This document shows, in pieces, positions 57,703 through 64,000 of a stretch of 64,000 nucleotides of DNA (the first letter of the stretch is position 1; every line of letters begins with the position of its first letter). The notes under the pieces are model-generated. The model was not told where the DNA came from. It saw only the letters and a program-made list of their open reading frames with translations, and ran no database searches. Source of the stretch: Micromonospora kangleipakensis (GTDB lineage: Bacteria > Actinomycetota > Actinomycetes > Mycobacteriales > Micromonosporaceae); assembly GCF_004217615.1 (NCBI RefSeq), contig NZ_SHLD01000001.1:3720001-3784000 (forward strand). The letters are read 5' to 3'. The position numbers were made by a program, and so were the translations under genes.

Positions 57703-58680
57703 TCAGCCGGCGTTCATCCCGGCGCCGACCTCCTCGATCGCGTCCTCGATCCGGTGGGCCAGTTCGACGTCGAGGACGGTCACCCCGTCGACCCGTTGGG
57801 TCCGCACGGTCAGCACGGCGCTGTCCGGGTCCGGCCGGCCGATCTGCGGGGCGCGGCCGACCTCGGTCCGGAGTTGGTCGAGCCGGTCGAGCACCCGGTC
57901 CAGGTTGTCCGGCGGCAGCTCGATCGTGCGCACCAGCGACCGCCGGTCGCTCGACCAGTACCGCAGGCCGCTGAGCGCGTCCCGCAGCTCCTGCTCGGCC
58001 AGTGGGGCCGTGGCCGACCTCGGACCCACCAGGCCACCGCCGGGCTCCGGCGGCGTGAGCAGGTCCCGCAACCCGTCCGGTACGCGCAGCGACTCGACGA
58101 GGTCGCCGTCGGCGTGGGCCAGCGCCGCGAGGGTCGCCTCGGCCTGGTACCGCGCCTGCTCCGGGGTGCGGCCGCTGATCCGGGCCACCTCGGCGAGGAA
58201 GCCCGCCAGGTCGTGGTGCCGTTCGATGCCGTCCACCGGCACCACGTCGTGCAGCTTCATCGGCACCGCCTCGAGCAGCCGTTCCCGCGCCGCCTCGTCC
58301 AACGCCCAGGCCAACGCCAGCACGGTCGCCTCGGCACCCACCTTGGCGGTGGAGAAGTCGACCCCGGCCCGGCGGCCGACGTCGTCGACCAGGGCGCGAT
58401 ACCCGACAGCGGTCACCGCGGGAGTGCCCTTGCCGGGCTCAGGGAGCGGCCGACCGGGCTGCTGCACAGAGCGCTCCGGCGGGGCGGGACCGCCCCGGGG
58501 GATGTTCGGCTTGCGCCGACCGGCGGGCGGCGGACCGTGCCGCCGGCCCTGGTCCAGGGAGGTGATCTGCTTGGACGCGCTCAGGCTCGCGCGGACCTGG
58601 CTGGGCTGCCGACCCCGCTCCCGGGCCTCCCGGGCCAGGGCCCGGCGGCGCTGGTTGTCGCCCTCCATCTGCTTGCGCAT
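57703..58680 (-). CDS. DUF2267 plus pterin carbinolamine dehydratase-like fusion
   Basis: A 325-aa protein. After a basic, Pro-rich N-terminal 90 residues, about 91-215 form a DUF2267-type helical domain (VGYRALVDDVGRRAGVDFST, ALAWALDEAARERLLEAVPM). About 235-320 resemble the PCD/DCoH fold (SGLRYWSSDRRSLVRTIELP, ending TVLDVELAHRIEDAIEEV). The HHP-type catalytic triad of PCD is not evident (GRPDPDSAVLTV instead), so catalysis is doubtful. ATG 58680 with GAGG is preferred. Confidence 0.65.
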   Translation of the reverse strand: MRKQMEGDNQRRRALAREARERGRQPSQVRASLSASKQITSLDQGRRHGPPPAGRRKPNIPRGGPAPPERSVQQPGRPLPEPGKGTPAVTAVGYRALVDDVGRRAGVDFSTAKVGAEATVLALAWALDEAARERLLEAVPMKLHDVVPVDGIERHHDLAGFLAEVARISGRTPEQARYQAEATLAALAHADGDLVESLRVPDGLRDLLTPPEPGGGLVGPRSATAPLAEQELRDALSGLRYWSSDRRSLVRTIELPPDNLDRVLDRLDQLRTEVGRAPQIGRPDPDSAVLTVRTQRVDGVTVLDVELAHRIEDAIEEVGAGMNAG

Positions 58681-58881
58681 CGTCACACCTCGTTCCTCGT
58701 CGGGTTCGGCCTTCCGCGCGTCGCCTTCCCGCCGTCGCGGGGAAGGAAACGGCCACGGCCGGCGCGCCGCGGGGAGCGCGTGTCAGCTTCATTCGCTGGG
58801 GGTGAGGGGCGTTCACCCGGCGGCGGCCCACGATCGGGGTGGACCGGGAAACTTCCGATGCACGCGGAAGGGAAGGTCGTC

Positions 58882-59272: not shown

Positions 59273-59620
59273 TCAGCCCGCCTCGCGGGCGTCGTCGGTC
59301 GCGGCGGGCCGTGGCACCGCCAGCAGCTCGCCCAGCCCGGTGCGGTCGAGCAGCTGCTGGACCTGCGGGTTCATCCCGGTGAGCTGGATCGGCCCGGTGC
59401 CGGCGCGGTGGATCACCACGAAGGCGCTCAGCCCGGAGGAGTCGCAGAGCCCTACGCCGCCGAGGTCGATCAGCAGCTCCTGGTAGCCGTCGAGACGGAG
59501 CTCCGCGGCGGTGGCGATGAGTTCCGGCGCGGTGTCGAAGTCCAGCTCGCCGGTCAGCCGCAGCCGGGCTCGTCCGGCGCCGAGCCGGCTCACCTCGATG
59601 GTCAACAGCTGGGCGGGCAT
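59273..59620 (-). CDS. STAS-domain anti-sigma factor antagonist
   Basis: A 115-aa protein that is a single STAS domain. ARLRLTGELDFDTAPELIAT, LLIDLGGVGLCDSSGLSAFV (the phosphorylatable Ser in DSSG) and VQQLLDRTGLGELL are canonical for SpoIIAA/RsbV-type antagonists. When unphosphorylated they bind and sequester an anti-sigma kinase. No anti-sigma kinase gene is adjacent. It faces away from the SpoIIE phosphatase gene across 427 bp. ATG 59620. Confidence 0.9.
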   Translation of the reverse strand: MPAQLLTIEVSRLGAGRARLRLTGELDFDTAPELIATAAELRLDGYQELLIDLGGVGLCDSSGLSAFVVIHRAGTGPIQLTGMNPQVQQLLDRTGLGELLAVPRPAATDDAREAG

Positions 59621-59667
59621 GGGTTCATGTTCCCAGGCCGACGTGATCGGGAAACCCCGGGTGTGCC

Positions 59668-59830
59668 TCAGGCGGAGGCGGATCTCTCCCTGGCGTCCCC
59701 GGCGGTGGGCCACCCGGGACGGACGCTGAGCGGTGGCCGGGCGAGCAGGCCGGTGACCCCGGTGATGTCCAGGATCGTCGCCAGGAACCGGGGGGTCTCG
59801 GGTAGCCGGATCACGGTGCCGTGCTGCGAC
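59668..59830 (-). pseudogene. STAS-like C-terminal remnant
   Basis: The frame ending at 59668 reads TVIRLPETPRFLATILDITG, then VTGLLARPPLSVRPGW, similar to the last helix of STAS domains. No N-terminal half is present upstream in any frame. The rest of the 427-bp gap (59621-60047) holds the promoters of the divergent STAS and SpoIIE genes, including a weak SigB-like GTTT/GGGTAG pair (59988-59991, 60004-60009; 12-bp spacer). Confidence 0.35.
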
Positions 59831-60047
59831 CCTGATCGCGGGAGCGCCCGGGTCGGAGCGGTCGGATCGTAACAACCCCGGAACCACCCCGCTCGGCGTC
59901 GCCGACGGCGGCTGGCGGACCTGCCGTGCGGTGCCGGTCCCGGCATACCGGCGTAGGGTGGGGCGAGGGGATTGGACCACATACGCCGTTTCGGGTGGAC
60001 CGCGGGTAGCGACGCCGCGGGTGTCGACAAGGAGTGGGGCTTAGCTG

Positions 60048-61808
60048 GTGACTGCTGCCGACGTCAGGGATGCTGACCCGGGCGACGGACGGATCTCCAC
60101 GCCGAGTACCGCACGGGCTTCGGCGCGGTCCGCCGGCGTCCCGGCGGCGTCCACCCTGCCACCGCTGGCCCCGGATCGCGGCGCGGCCACCCCCGACTGG
60201 TCCGAGGTGGTGGAGCACTTCCGCGAGGGACTGATCGTCTGCGACGCCGATGGCGTGGTGCGACACCTCAGCCCGGTCGCGGAGCGGCTCCTGCCGGAGG
60301 TCGTGCCGGGCGAGCTGCTCGCCGCCGCCGGTCTCGCCTCGCTCACGGGCGGCGGACCCGCCGAGTTCACCCACCATGGTCACCGGCTGCGGGTGCGGCA
60401 GGTGCCCCTCTCGGCCGCCCGCTGCTGCTGGTACGTCGAGGACGTCACCGAGAGCGTAAGCCGCGCCGACGCGCTGCTGGCCGAGCGGGCCCGCTCGGCG
60501 TTCCTCGCCGCGGTCGGGGAGAAGCTCGGCAACCCGCTGCACCCGGACCGCGCCGCAGCCGCCGTGGTGCGGCTCGCGGTGCCCACCCTCTCCGACGTCG
60601 CCGTGCTGGTGCTGGCCCCCCGCTCAGGGCGGGCCCGCTGGTGGCGGGCGTCCCGGTCCGACGACGAGGCGCCGGCGGTGGACAGCGGCGTGCTGACCGC
60701 CGCCGACCTGCCCGCGGCGATCGAGGAGGGGCTGGCGGGCATCGAGCCGCACACGCTGGACTGGCTGGTCGAGCAGGCGGTGGAGGCCGGCTGGCTGCCC
60801 GGGATGACCGCCGCCGAGGCGACCGCCCGCGTCGTGCCGCTGCCCGGCCGGGACATGCCGGCCGGGGTGCTGCTCGTCGCCCGGCGCGCCAGCCGGTGGT
60901 ACGACGAGGCCGACGTCCACCTGGTCCGGGCCTTCGCGGCGCGGGCCGGCGCCGCGCTGACCACCGCGGTGCTCTACCGCGACCAGGCCGAGGTCGCCGA
61001 CACCCTCCAGGCCAGCCTGGTGCCGGTGGAGCCGGCCCCGGCGCCCGGAGTGCAGTGGGGCACCGCGTACCGGCCGGCGCAGGCGGGGTTGCGCATCGGC
61101 GGCGACTTCTACGGCTCACACCGGTTGGCCGACGGTGGCTCGGTCTTCTTCCTCGGGGACGTGTCGGGCAAGGGGGTGGAGGCGGCCGTCTTCACCGGCC
61201 AGCTCCGGCAGTGCCTCCAGGCGCTGCACCGGGTGGAGTCGCACCCCGGACGCCTGCTGCGGCTGCTCAACGACGCGCTGCTGGAGACCACCCAGGCGCA
61301 CGGACAGGGGCGGTTCGCCACCATGGTGCTCGGGGTGGTCCGCCCGCACCGGGACGGCAGCCTCAGCCTGATGATGGCCGGCGGCGGGCACCTGCCGCCG
61401 CTGGTGCTGCGCGCCTCCGGCGAGGTCGAGGTGGTGCCGCTGAGCGGGATGCTGATCGGCGTGGTGCCGGATCCCCGGATCGGCGAGGTCACCGTCCGGT
61501 TGGAGCCGGGGGAGACCTGCCTGCTGTACAGCGACGGGGTGACCGAGGCCCGTGGCGGCCGGCGCGGCGACGAGCAGTTCGGCGCCGAGCGGCTGTTCAC
61601 CGCGCTCTCCGGCTGCCACCGGATGCCGGCGCCGGCCCTGGCCGAGCGGATCGAGCAGGTGACCTGCGACTGGCTGGCCCATGGTGACCACGACGACATC
61701 GCGGTGCTCGCCCTGCGGGCGACCGGTCCGGGGGCGCGGACGCCCCGACACCTGCACGCGGTGCCGGCCCCGGCCCGCCCCGACCACTCGAGGGAGACCT
61801 ACGCGTGA
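60048..61808 (+). CDS. GAF-SpoIIE (PP2C-type) protein phosphatase
   Basis: A 586-aa protein. About residues 45-130 form a PAS-like segment (VVEHFREGLIVCDADGVVRH). About 145-300 is a GAF-like domain (AFLAAVGEKLGNPLHPDRAA, VHLVRAFAARAGAALTTAVL). About 335-555 is the SpoIIE/RsbU phosphatase with the metal-binding aspartates in LRIGGDFYGSHRL, VFFLGDVSGKGVEAAVFTGQ, LLYSDGVTEARGG and HGDHDDIAVLALR. It is expected to dephosphorylate STAS proteins. GTG start at 60048. The end overlaps the B12-binding gene (GTGA), so the products are made in a coupled fashion. Confidence 0.92.
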   Translation: MTAADVRDADPGDGRISTPSTARASARSAGVPAASTLPPLAPDRGAATPDWSEVVEHFREGLIVCDADGVVRHLSPVAERLLPEVVPGELLAAAGLASLTGGGPAEFTHHGHRLRVRQVPLSAARCCWYVEDVTESVSRADALLAERARSAFLAAVGEKLGNPLHPDRAAAAVVRLAVPTLSDVAVLVLAPRSGRARWWRASRSDDEAPAVDSGVLTAADLPAAIEEGLAGIEPHTLDWLVEQAVEAGWLPGMTAAEATARVVPLPGRDMPAGVLLVARRASRWYDEADVHLVRAFAARAGAALTTAVLYRDQAEVADTLQASLVPVEPAPAPGVQWGTAYRPAQAGLRIGGDFYGSHRLADGGSVFFLGDVSGKGVEAAVFTGQLRQCLQALHRVESHPGRLLRLLNDALLETTQAHGQGRFATMVLGVVRPHRDGSLSLMMAGGGHLPPLVLRASGEVEVVPLSGMLIGVVPDPRIGEVTVRLEPGETCLLYSDGVTEARGGRRGDEQFGAERLFTALSGCHRMPAPALAERIEQVTCDWLAHGDHDDIAVLALRATGPGARTPRHLHAVPAPARPDHSRETYA

Positions 61809-62851
61809 CCGCCACGACCATCGAGACCGACCCGGCCCACGCCTACCCCGGCTACCTCCAGTCCCTGGAGGAGGCCGACGAGTACGCCGCCGTCGAGGTG
61901 GCGCTGGGGCTGCTCGAGGCCGGGGTGCCGGCGGAGCGGGTGCTGCTCGACCTGGTCGCCCCGGCGCAGGCCGAGGTGGGGGAGCGCTGGGCGCGCAACG
62001 AGTGGAGCGTCGCCCAGGAGCACGCGGCCACGCACATCAGCGAGCGGGTGGTGGCAGCCGTCGCCGGGTACGCCAACCCGCGGCCGACCCGCGGCCGGCT
62101 CGTGGTCGCCTGCCTGGACGGCGAGTGGCACGCGCTGCCGCCCCGTCTGGTGGCCGAGGTGCTGCGCCTCCGGGGCTGGCAGGTCACCTTCCTCGGCGCC
62201 AGCGTCCCCGCCGCGCACCTGGTGTCCTACCTGCACCGGTACGACGCGCACGCGGTCCTGCTGGCCTGCGCGCTGCCGATGCGGCTGCCGCACGCGCACC
62301 GCATGATCGAGGCGTGTCGCCGCTCCGACGTGCCGGTGGTGGTCGGGGGGCGCGGGTTCGGCGACGACGGGCGCTGGGCGCGACGGCTGGGGGTGGCGTG
62401 GGCGCCGGACGCGCCGACCGCCGCCGACCTGGTCGCCGACGAGCGGGCGCTGCGCCGGGTACCGCCGACCCAGCTCGACCACCTCGCCGACGACGAGTAC
62501 GCCAGCCTGGTCAGGCGGCGCGGCGAGCTGATCGACAGCGCGCTGGCGGACCTGCGGGAGCGGGTGCCCGCGGTGCACGACTACACCCCGGCGCAGCTGG
62601 ACTCGACCATCAGCGACCTGGGCTACATCATCGACTTCCTGGCCGCCGCCCTCTACGTCGACGACGCCACCCTCTTCACCGACTTCGTCGGGTGGCTGGT
62701 GACGATCCTGACCAGCCGCGGGGTGCCGGCGGGTGCGGTCGGGCTCACCCTGGAGCATTATGGACAGACGCTGCGGGACTTTCCCCGGGCGGCGCGGTTC
62801 CTCGACGGCGGCCGGGCGCTGGTGAGCGCAGCAGGCCGGCCGCGGCGCTGA
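61805..62851 (+). CDS. Cobalamin-binding protein with CarH-type light-sensor signature
   Basis: A 348-aa protein. Residues about 25-95 are a helical B12-binding cap (B12-binding_2) with W62, nine residues, then E72-H73: exactly the Wx9EH signature of CarH/LitR photoreceptors. About 98-215 is the Rossmann-like B12-binding domain with GEWHALPPRL; H109 is the candidate lower-axial ligand, 36 residues after H73 (35 in CarH). VPVVVGGRGFGDD is the SxL/GG-equivalent end. There is no MerR HTH. A helical C-terminal domain (about 225-340) is of unknown role. Its GTG overlaps the phosphatase stop. Confidence 0.87.
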   Translation: MTATTIETDPAHAYPGYLQSLEEADEYAAVEVALGLLEAGVPAERVLLDLVAPAQAEVGERWARNEWSVAQEHAATHISERVVAAVAGYANPRPTRGRLVVACLDGEWHALPPRLVAEVLRLRGWQVTFLGASVPAAHLVSYLHRYDAHAVLLACALPMRLPHAHRMIEACRRSDVPVVVGGRGFGDDGRWARRLGVAWAPDAPTAADLVADERALRRVPPTQLDHLADDEYASLVRRRGELIDSALADLRERVPAVHDYTPAQLDSTISDLGYIIDFLAAALYVDDATLFTDFVGWLVTILTSRGVPAGAVGLTLEHYGQTLRDFPRAARFLDGGRALVSAAGRPRR

Positions 62852-62938
62852 CCGGTCAGGTACGGGCGTCGGGACGCCTCCTGCTTATACTTGCTGCACT
62901 GCAAGCATTCGCCTGCGGTGGGAGCGAGAGGGACCGCG

Positions 62939-63286
62939 TTGCCGTTCACCGTCACCTACGCCCAGCGGGCCGACGGTCGGGCGTGCCTGCGGCTCGCCGG
63001 TGAGCTCGACATGAGCACCGCCCCCGAGCTGAACGCCGAGATCGACCGGCTCCGCGCCGACGGTGAGCGGTACCTGCTGATCGATCTCACCGAGCTGACC
63101 TTCTGCGACTCGACCGGCATCGCGGCGTTCGTCCGCGGCGACAACCGGGCCTCGGCCGACGGCGGCTGGCTGCGGGTCACCGGGGCCAGCGGGCGGGTGG
63201 AGCGGGTGCTGCAGGTGACCGGGCTCGCCGAGGTCCTGCGCTACGACGCGGACACGCCCGACCCGGCCTCGCCGTCGCGCCCCTGA
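62939..63286 (+). CDS. STAS-domain anti-sigma factor antagonist
   Basis: A 115-aa protein. ACLRLAGELDMSTAPELNAE, LIDLTELTFCDSTGIAAFVR (phosphorylatable Ser in DSTG) and VERVLQVTGLAEVLRYDAD. A TTG start at 62939, preceded by GAGAGGGA, fits the domain boundary; the ATG-initiated frame further upstream has an unlikely N-terminus. It follows the B12-binding gene by 87 bp and is the obvious substrate of the SpoIIE phosphatase. Confidence 0.88.
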   Translation: MPFTVTYAQRADGRACLRLAGELDMSTAPELNAEIDRLRADGERYLLIDLTELTFCDSTGIAAFVRGDNRASADGGWLRVTGASGRVERVLQVTGLAEVLRYDADTPDPASPSRP

Positions 63287-63357
63287 TGGGCTAGATTTCC
63301 CCGCCAGCAGGTGACCGAGAGGTCCCGTTCCGCCACCGAGACGAAGCAGGTAAACCG

Positions 63358-63804
63358 ATGGGTCCAGGCAGCCCGAGCCCCGTTCGTATCCTGGTGGTGG
63401 ACGACGATCCGGGCGACGTCCTGATGATCGAGGAGGCCCTCGAGGACTCCGACGTCGAGAAGGTCATCGACGTGGTCAACGACGGCCAGGAGGCGATGGA
63501 GTTCCTCCGGCGCGAGGGTCGGCACATCGACGCCCGCCGCCCCGACATGATCCTTCTGGACCTGAACATGCCCCGGATGGACGGCCGGCAGGTGCTCGGC
63601 GAGGTGAAGCAGGACGAGGACCTGCGCACCATCCCGATCGTCGTGCTCACCACGTCGAACGCGGACACCGACATCGTCGGCAGCTACACGCTGCAGGCCA
63701 ACGCGTACGTGACGAAGCCGATCGACCTCGACGACTTCAACGACGTGGTGCGGCGCATCGACGAGTTCTTCGGCCGCGTGGTCGTGCTGCCCAAGCGCTC
63801 CTGA
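63358..63804 (+). CDS. Single-domain response regulator, Rcp1-like
   Basis: A 148-aa receiver domain only. The acidic pocket is LVVDDDPGDVLMIEEALEDS; the phosphoacceptor Asp is in MILLDLNMPRMDGRQVLGEV; the switch Thr/Ser is in IVVLTTSNADTDIVGSYTLQ; and the conserved Lys is in AYVTKPIDLDDFNDVVRRID. The GDVLMIEEAL opening and the length are characteristic of the Rcp1/CheY-like regulators that partner phytochromes and other photoreceptor histidine kinases. A kinase gene may be the one starting at 63986. Confidence 0.9.
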   Translation: MGPGSPSPVRILVVDDDPGDVLMIEEALEDSDVEKVIDVVNDGQEAMEFLRREGRHIDARRPDMILLDLNMPRMDGRQVLGEVKQDEDLRTIPIVVLTTSNADTDIVGSYTLQANAYVTKPIDLDDFNDVVRRIDEFFGRVVVLPKRS

Positions 63805-63985
63805 GCGTCGTTCGTCCGGATCGCCGCCGGCTGGGGTGCCGGGGGCGGGGATTGTCCACGCGCGGTCGCCGGTCGTCGACCGCCCTCGGATGCTGAACAT
63901 TTTTCCTGAACCGCCCCGGCGGTCACCGGCAGCACCCAGGATCGGCAGGTGGGGAAGAAACATCAGCTGCCTGGGGGGCGACAGT

Positions 63986-64000
63986 ATGAGGTTCTCCGTC
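63986..64000 (+). CDS. Start of a gene cut by the window end
   Basis: ATG followed by four codons (RFSV), preceded by GGGGGG as a possible ribosome site. In Rcp1-type loci this would often be a phytochrome-like or GAF/PAS histidine kinase, but no sequence is available to judge. The 181 bp before it contain no gene and presumably its promoter. Confidence 0.35.

Follow-up and report, generated by a model that had tools for sequence, protein, structure and literature searches.

The window analysed here is a stretch of 64,000 nucleotides from Micromonospora kangleipakensis (positions 3,720,001-3,784,000 of a 7.27-Mb single-contig genome), and the module of interest is located at its end. In this module the gene of a SpoIIE/RsbU-type phosphatase overlaps that of a photocobilin, a B12-binding protein with a bilin-binding-type globin, and the pair is accompanied by genes for STAS proteins and a response regulator. 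The five genes proposed by an initial annotation were recovered at the same positions from open reading frames and a Pfam scan, and the 4-bp overlap that it described was found to be real. The features of the module, in window coordinates, are as follows.

59273-59620, minus strand: divergent STAS protein of the anti-sigma-factor-antagonist type with a DSSG motif (STAS_2, E 1.6e-14; STAS, E 9.1e-11)
59690-59890, minus strand: remnant of another divergent STAS gene, resembling the ends of the STAS found here in 44 relatives
60048-61808, plus strand: SpoIIE/RsbU-type PPM phosphatase of 586 amino acids (Pfam, structural model)
61805-61808, plus strand: overlap of four nucleotides, GTGA, between the phosphatase stop and the photocobilin start (sequence)
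61805-62851, plus strand: photocobilin of 348 amino acids (sequence and fold match to SasPcob)
61853-62401, plus strand: B12 half of the photocobilin, a four-helix bundle (residues 17-85; PF02607, E 2.5e-14) and a Rossmann domain (residues 98-199; PF02310, E 1.7e-16)
62477-62842, plus strand: globin half of the photocobilin (residues 225-346), carrying D271 and W297
about 62939-63286, plus strand: downstream STAS protein with a DSTG motif, its coordinates approximate and its TTG start uncertain (STAS, E 1.2e-16; TIGR00377 above the cut-off)
63358-63804, plus strand: single-domain response regulator (PF00072, E 1.2e-21)

Photocobilins were named as a family in 2024, with structures 8J2W, 8J2X and 8J2Y (PMC10979010). 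The product of 61805-62851 was found to match SasPcob, the standalone photocobilin of Saccharothrix syringae (PDB 8J2W, 8J2X; PMC10979010), nearly end to end in sequence (about 53% identity), and its modelled structure likewise matches SasPcob in fold. The residues W62, E72, H73 and H109 that had been singled out are exact, with the spacing Wx9EH, and E107-W108-H109 corresponds to the E/DxH motif of photocobilins with the lower axial histidine, so that the CarH-like set of B12 residues is present. The absence of a DNA-binding domain was also borne out, as Pfam shows only B12-binding_2 (residues 17-85) and B12-binding (98-199). However, the initial annotation had taken the protein for a CarH relative merely short of its helix-turn-helix, and had overlooked residues ~225-346, which sequence and fold comparison identify as a C-terminal five-helix globin of the bilin-binding type packed on the B12 domain. 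The globin half, together with the nearly full-length photocobilin match, accounts for the protein, and a CarH that lacks its helix-turn-helix was therefore rejected; no helix-turn-helix was found in the Pfam scan, and the NCBIfam CarH equivalog scored 61.1 bits, its cut-off being 400.

D271 and W297 of the globin half align with Asp270 and Trp296 of SasPcob, both of which contact biliverdin, and residues 225-348 contain no cysteine in the translation, so a covalent attachment site for the bilin is absent. The product of 61805-62851 is a photocobilin, and binding of adenosylcobalamin and biliverdin is predicted from these residues. CarH and LitR share the B12 domain, the Wx9EH motif and the lower axial histidine with it, but CarH carries an N-terminal helix-turn-helix, has no globin and acts on DNA, whereas the window protein has the globin and no helix-turn-helix. 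AbDPcob (PDB 8J2Y) differs in being fused to a diguanylate cyclase, with histidine in place of the biliverdin aspartate and cyclic di-GMP as its output (PMC10979010), while the window protein is unfused and has the aspartate. A second B12-type protein is encoded in the same genome (L002:1294-2262, minus strand); on visual reading its N-terminus is MerR-like, the Glu-His pair is kept and the tryptophan is seemingly absent.

Homologues were collected from 61 genomes including the organism's own (33 with a match at E <= 1e-20), from 396 genomes of the phylum (38 with a match, those confined to the B12 half being left out) and from named genome contigs (61 loci). The 127 loci were reduced by 19 identical copies to 108 distinct photocobilin genes, an uneven sample because 70 of them are Micromonospora-type orthologues. 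Of the 108 genes, 95 are immediately preceded by a SpoIIE/RsbU-type phosphatase gene in the same orientation, and within the same class this holds for 95 of 96. The linked genes consist of the 70 orthologues and 25 that are paralogous or from other genera; the 13 unlinked ones are L040, of the same order and with alanine at position 62, and 12 genes of other classes. A start codon is available at the overlap of four nucleotides in 88 of the 95, so the coupling to the phosphatase holds more strongly than had been claimed. As background, this phosphatase has 12 matches (E <= 1e-5) in the 7.27-Mb genome, and the arrangement is far beyond chance. Gaps between neighbours were measured between the edges of hidden Markov model (HMM) domains (11 to 305 nucleotides), some loci end at contig edges, and the window's own left flank falls outside its counted locus (L032).

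The remaining neighbours are less constant. A same-strand STAS gene lies within 800 nucleotides downstream in 74 of the 95 linked loci, including 12 of the 25 non-orthologous modules, and a response regulator lies within 1,500 nucleotides downstream in 69, of which 68 are Micromonospora-type orthologues. In five of the full-length orthologues (L159, L160, L164, L167 and L174) no STAS gene separates photocobilin and regulator. The core is therefore the phosphatase and the photocobilin, since STAS is merely usual and the regulator almost restricted to the orthologues. Among the 37 genomes of the genus, 29 have both phosphatase and photocobilin of this first pair and 8 have neither, a perfect co-occurrence that is uncorrected for relatedness.

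The chromophore residues are conserved throughout the linked genes, with W62 and H109 present in all 95, E72 and H73 in 94, W297 in 92 and D271 in 80. The single exception at E72 and H73 is L178, a frameshifted fragment with a gap at H73, and three gaps each at W297 and D271 come from the truncated or frameshifted L173, L177 and L178, which are counted among the 95. Thus no linked gene keeps the neighbourhood while truly losing W62, H73 or H109, a loss that the initial annotation had named as evidence against its proposal. In L177 and L178, from two draft genomes, the photocobilin gene is split over several frames, by draft error or decay, and the phosphatase matches its whole model.

In the remaining 12 linked genes, position 271 is occupied by V, A, G or T and not by aspartate. 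A quick tree was drawn from 49 rows (9 of the 67 full-length orthologues, 25 other linked genes, 13 unlinked genes, SasPcob and AbPcob; the truncated and frameshifted genes excluded); 11 of its forks are open and some of its branches are long. On it the Asp/Glu state changes at least three times, in L040 and in two linked lineages of six genes each. The phosphatase link needs two changes on the same tree. The weaker biliverdin binding of AbPcob has been tied to histidine at the aspartate position (PMC10979010 section 7), and the lineages without the aspartate are by this analogy predicted to be mainly B12 (green) sensors.

The phosphatase was observed to consist of a disordered N-terminus (residues 1-59), a PAS-like domain (60-132), a GAF-like domain (166-280), a long helix (287-323) and the PPM domain (330-560). 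The Pfam matches to GAF_3 (E 0.0011) and PAS_4 (E 0.057) are both weak and under the cut-off; the order of helices and strands in the model fits PAS and GAF on visual reading, the fold search having covered other parts, where RssB aligns over residues 280-558. The helical linker before the PPM domain is present in the model, with a predicted local distance difference test (pLDDT) score below 50 at residues 312-319. The metal-binding aspartate motifs of the PPM domain are intact in all 29 aligned phosphatases, and the Asp-Ser of the downstream STAS protein is kept in 13 of 14 aligned sequences, including the window's own. In both STAS proteins of the window we take the serine of DSTG or DSSG to be the phosphosite. 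The orthologue of the 59273-59620 protein also adjoins the module in many relatives. In the neighbouring remnant (59690-59890) both ends still match and the phosphosite region is gone. A DUF2267 protein with a borderline match to pterin-4a-carbinolamine dehydratase (57703-58686, minus strand) is also kept near the module in many relatives.

Separate partners of such phosphatases are known from Bacillus subtilis. RsbQ activates RsbP (PMC3183031) and RsbT activates RsbU (PMC12143880); both phosphatases are PPM enzymes that contain a helical linker and feed partner switching. RsbQ is encoded in a bicistronic rsbQP operon and its module also pairs with kinases and cyclases (PMC3183031). RsbQ/RsbP is a precedent for a sensor that stands apart from its output, the partner being a phosphatase, a kinase or a cyclase in turn. 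OsaC of Streptomyces coelicolor, listed in PMC12143880 as a PPM phosphatase with GAF and PAS domains, resembles the window phosphatase, with its putative PAS and GAF domains, in architecture and helical linker; the passages on it in PMC12143880 mention no photocobilin partner. RsbQ is an alpha/beta hydrolase, unlike the photocobilin. RsbT is a kinase-like protein, and neither of the two is known to be a photoreceptor. Furthermore, in AbDPcob the fused cyclase is activated over 10-fold by light, photocobilin domains act on a cyclase in trans (PMC10979010 section 8), and a test cyclase was activated by light-state SasPcob with biliverdin (PMC10979010). SasPcob itself comes from a different species from the one studied here; for the present protein, the pairing with a phosphatase is seen by gene order in 95 relatives and by the overlap of four nucleotides.

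From these likenesses, from the match to SasPcob, the conserved residues and the constant gene pairing, and from the L176 cassette and the signalling partners outside the class that are described below, we infer that the locus is probably a light-responsive input to partner switching in which the photocobilin acts in trans on the phosphatase, a reading held with reasonable but far from complete confidence. The photocobilin would bind adenosylcobalamin and, where available, biliverdin, and green light (directly) or red light (via biliverdin) would break the Co-C bond and cause the protein to rearrange. As the proposed sensory partner of the phosphatase from the overlapping upstream gene, in the manner of RsbQ for RsbP or RsbT for RsbU, it would contact the PAS/GAF/helical-linker part and shift the enzyme between inactive and active states. 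The active phosphatase would then dephosphorylate the conserved serine of a STAS protein, be it the product of the downstream gene, of the divergent gene or of some other. This STAS protein could in turn capture an RsbW-type kinase encoded elsewhere and so free a target, probably a sigma factor.

Several observations weigh against this reading, and with them come the alternatives that they would favour. One concerns the sign of the response, as dark SasPcob without biliverdin activated the test cyclase and its light state appeared inhibitory (PMC10979010); given the opposite result with biliverdin, the effect of light may go either way. Another comes from a second pair in the genus, whose phosphatase is 40-44% and whose photocobilin is 46-51% identical to those of the first. 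Phosphatase-2 was found in 26 genus genomes and photocobilin-2 in only 7, the organism's own genome being among the 19 without it; photocobilin-1 is present in 18 of these 19, and G002 has neither. The organism's phosphatase-2 (L191:3659-5641) has an open reading frame and shares 79-81% identity with its counterparts in three relatives that carry photocobilin-2. It is followed at L191:5716-5835 by a stretch resembling only the C-terminal ~30 residues of photocobilin-2, so this photocobilin gene has been lost, the locus having been inspected in this one of the 19 genomes. In the phylum search, G010 also gave a partial photocobilin match beside phosphatase-2. Such phosphatases can thus persist without their neighbour, which speaks against an obligate subunit in the second lineage. 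In addition, no photocobilin-SpoIIE fusion was found among five long proteins from a search with the two proteins joined (8000 best candidates), an absence that is itself weak because the search reaches only proteins sharing 5-residue words.

The persistence of phosphatase-2 without photocobilin-2, the missing fusion and the frequent downstream STAS gene would all fit an arrangement in which the two genes are co-transcribed but the photocobilin acts on something other than the phosphatase (for instance the response regulator, the STAS protein or a kinase of the RsbW type), and light enters the same pathway elsewhere. We consider this unlikely, though it deserves to be kept in mind, as the phosphatase is the most constant neighbour of all (present in 95 of 95 linked loci, where STAS reaches 74 and the regulator 69), 21 of the linked loci lack a STAS gene on the same strand within 800 nucleotides (some of them cut by contig ends), and phosphatase-1 is missing in all eight genomes where photocobilin-1 is missing.

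A further point is the supply of chromophore. Heme oxygenase, from which biliverdin usually comes, is recognisable in 12 of the 37 genus genomes (in G035 by a partial match only); these 12 are among the 29 carriers of photocobilin-1 and none is among the 8 genomes without it (one-sided Fisher 0.028, uncorrected for relatedness), and 17 carriers show no such gene. Biliverdin supply is therefore doubtful in many strains, where the bilin site may be empty or supplied from outside. The organism's own genome has one heme oxygenase match, weak but over the cut-off (37.5 bits) and without an NCBIfam family, together with a match to the CobO/BtuR-family adenosyltransferase. These observations raise the possibility that the photocobilin reports the level of adenosylcobalamin (or of bilin or heme) to the same phosphatase and that its light reaction is incidental. 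The B12-contact residues are indeed the most conserved, the biliverdin aspartate is absent in the 12 linked genes described above, and adenosylcobalamin alone left the cyclase of AbDPcob less active than in its apo state (PMC10979010 section 8). Against such a sensor of cofactor level, the equivalents of W62 and E72-H73 in the light-sensitive photocobilins stack on the adenosyl group and form a network with it (PMC10979010 section 7), and SasPcob is photoactive with either colour (PMC10979010 section 6); we regard it as quite unlikely.

The last of the opposing points concerns the kinase. An HMM built from 14 HATPase_c_2 matches of the organism's genome was used to look for RsbW-like kinases nearby. 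In 105 of the 108 loci, the window's locus included, it gave no match within 4.5 kb. The matches in the other three lie on the same strand in L176 and L100 and on the opposite strand, weakly, in L095; L100 has a second match on the opposite strand. As neither a kinase nor a sigma factor turned up in the locus (sigma factors were not searched for), the STAS/phosphatase pair might control some other target with a link to STAS proteins, such as a transporter or a second-messenger enzyme. Partner-switching phosphatases such as SiaA serve biofilm regulation in other bacteria, and the SiaA family name is among the matches of the NCBIfam scan. An output of this kind is nevertheless very unlikely, since TIGR00377, a model of anti-sigma-factor antagonists, matches each of the two STAS proteins (one of them above the cut-off), the genome holds 51 HATPase_c_2 matches (not every one RsbW-type), and Paractinoplanes atraurantiacus has in L176 (4007-6921) a run of STAS, RsbW-like kinase, phosphatase and photocobilin. 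This cassette would be a clean place to start for work on the pathway.

Outside the class, photocobilins were observed beside other partners. Nine of the 13 unlinked loci (10 proteins) were scanned for neighbours, and cyclic di-GMP enzymes adjoin the photocobilin in four, with GGDEF in L103, L107 and L114 and EAL in L106. The other five are without GGDEF or EAL and show an ABM domain, a thioesterase, a heliorhodopsin and, in two cases, no family. The heliorhodopsin gene directly follows the photocobilin-like gene (L117:6869-8717), which places two light-related proteins side by side. An ABM-domain (PF03992) monooxygenase adjoins the photocobilin at L103:7948-8301 and L104:6636-6971 and might be a bilin source. 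The ABM superfamily includes heme-degrading enzymes. As for the five long proteins, P0124 joins the photocobilin to a histidine kinase, P0125 to a response regulator, winged helix, PAS and EAL, and P0126 to a response regulator and winged helix. P0122 and P0123 have B12 domains only, save for a DUF6559 match under the cut-off in P0122, and the long N-terminal part of P0123 looks by eye like a wrong-frame reading of the upstream gene. A Phycobilisome domain in P0124 is barely over the Pfam cut-off (23.3 against 22.2 bits).

The initial annotation had considered this an undescribed system, which does not stand. We count the locus as a member of a known family because the family and the suggestion of STAS and SpoIIE partners are already in print (PMC10979010). 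The potential partners of SasPcob listed in that work include STAS, SpoIIE and PP2C-like phosphatases (section 9), Micromonospora yangpuensis is among the species of its network analysis (section 21), and it calls the function of standalone photocobilins 'less clear' (section 8). In the open-licence literature we found no experimental test of the photocobilin-phosphatase pairing. What is new here is the depth of conservation, the lineages without the biliverdin aspartate and the frequent absence of photocobilin-2 where phosphatase-2 stays.

A broader proposal can be offered tentatively, and as a whole it is more doubtful than the reading of the single locus. The photocobilins of this class may be dedicated light subunits of an RsbU-type phosphatase that give a two-colour input to bacteria without phytochrome; in the organism's own genome a search with PF00360 found none. 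The biliverdin aspartate would tune the colour range, two linked lineages would have become B12-only (green) sensors independently, and the orphan phosphatase-2 would be driven by the remaining photocobilin or be partnerless. For the family, the phosphatase gives standalone photocobilins a concrete candidate partner in a cultivable soil genus, with STAS phosphorylation and light-dependent transcription as readouts. If the reading of the locus is true, it would represent a natural trans-acting light-switched phosphatase, and B12/bilin photochemistry would be tied to the switches of stress and development in actinomycetes.

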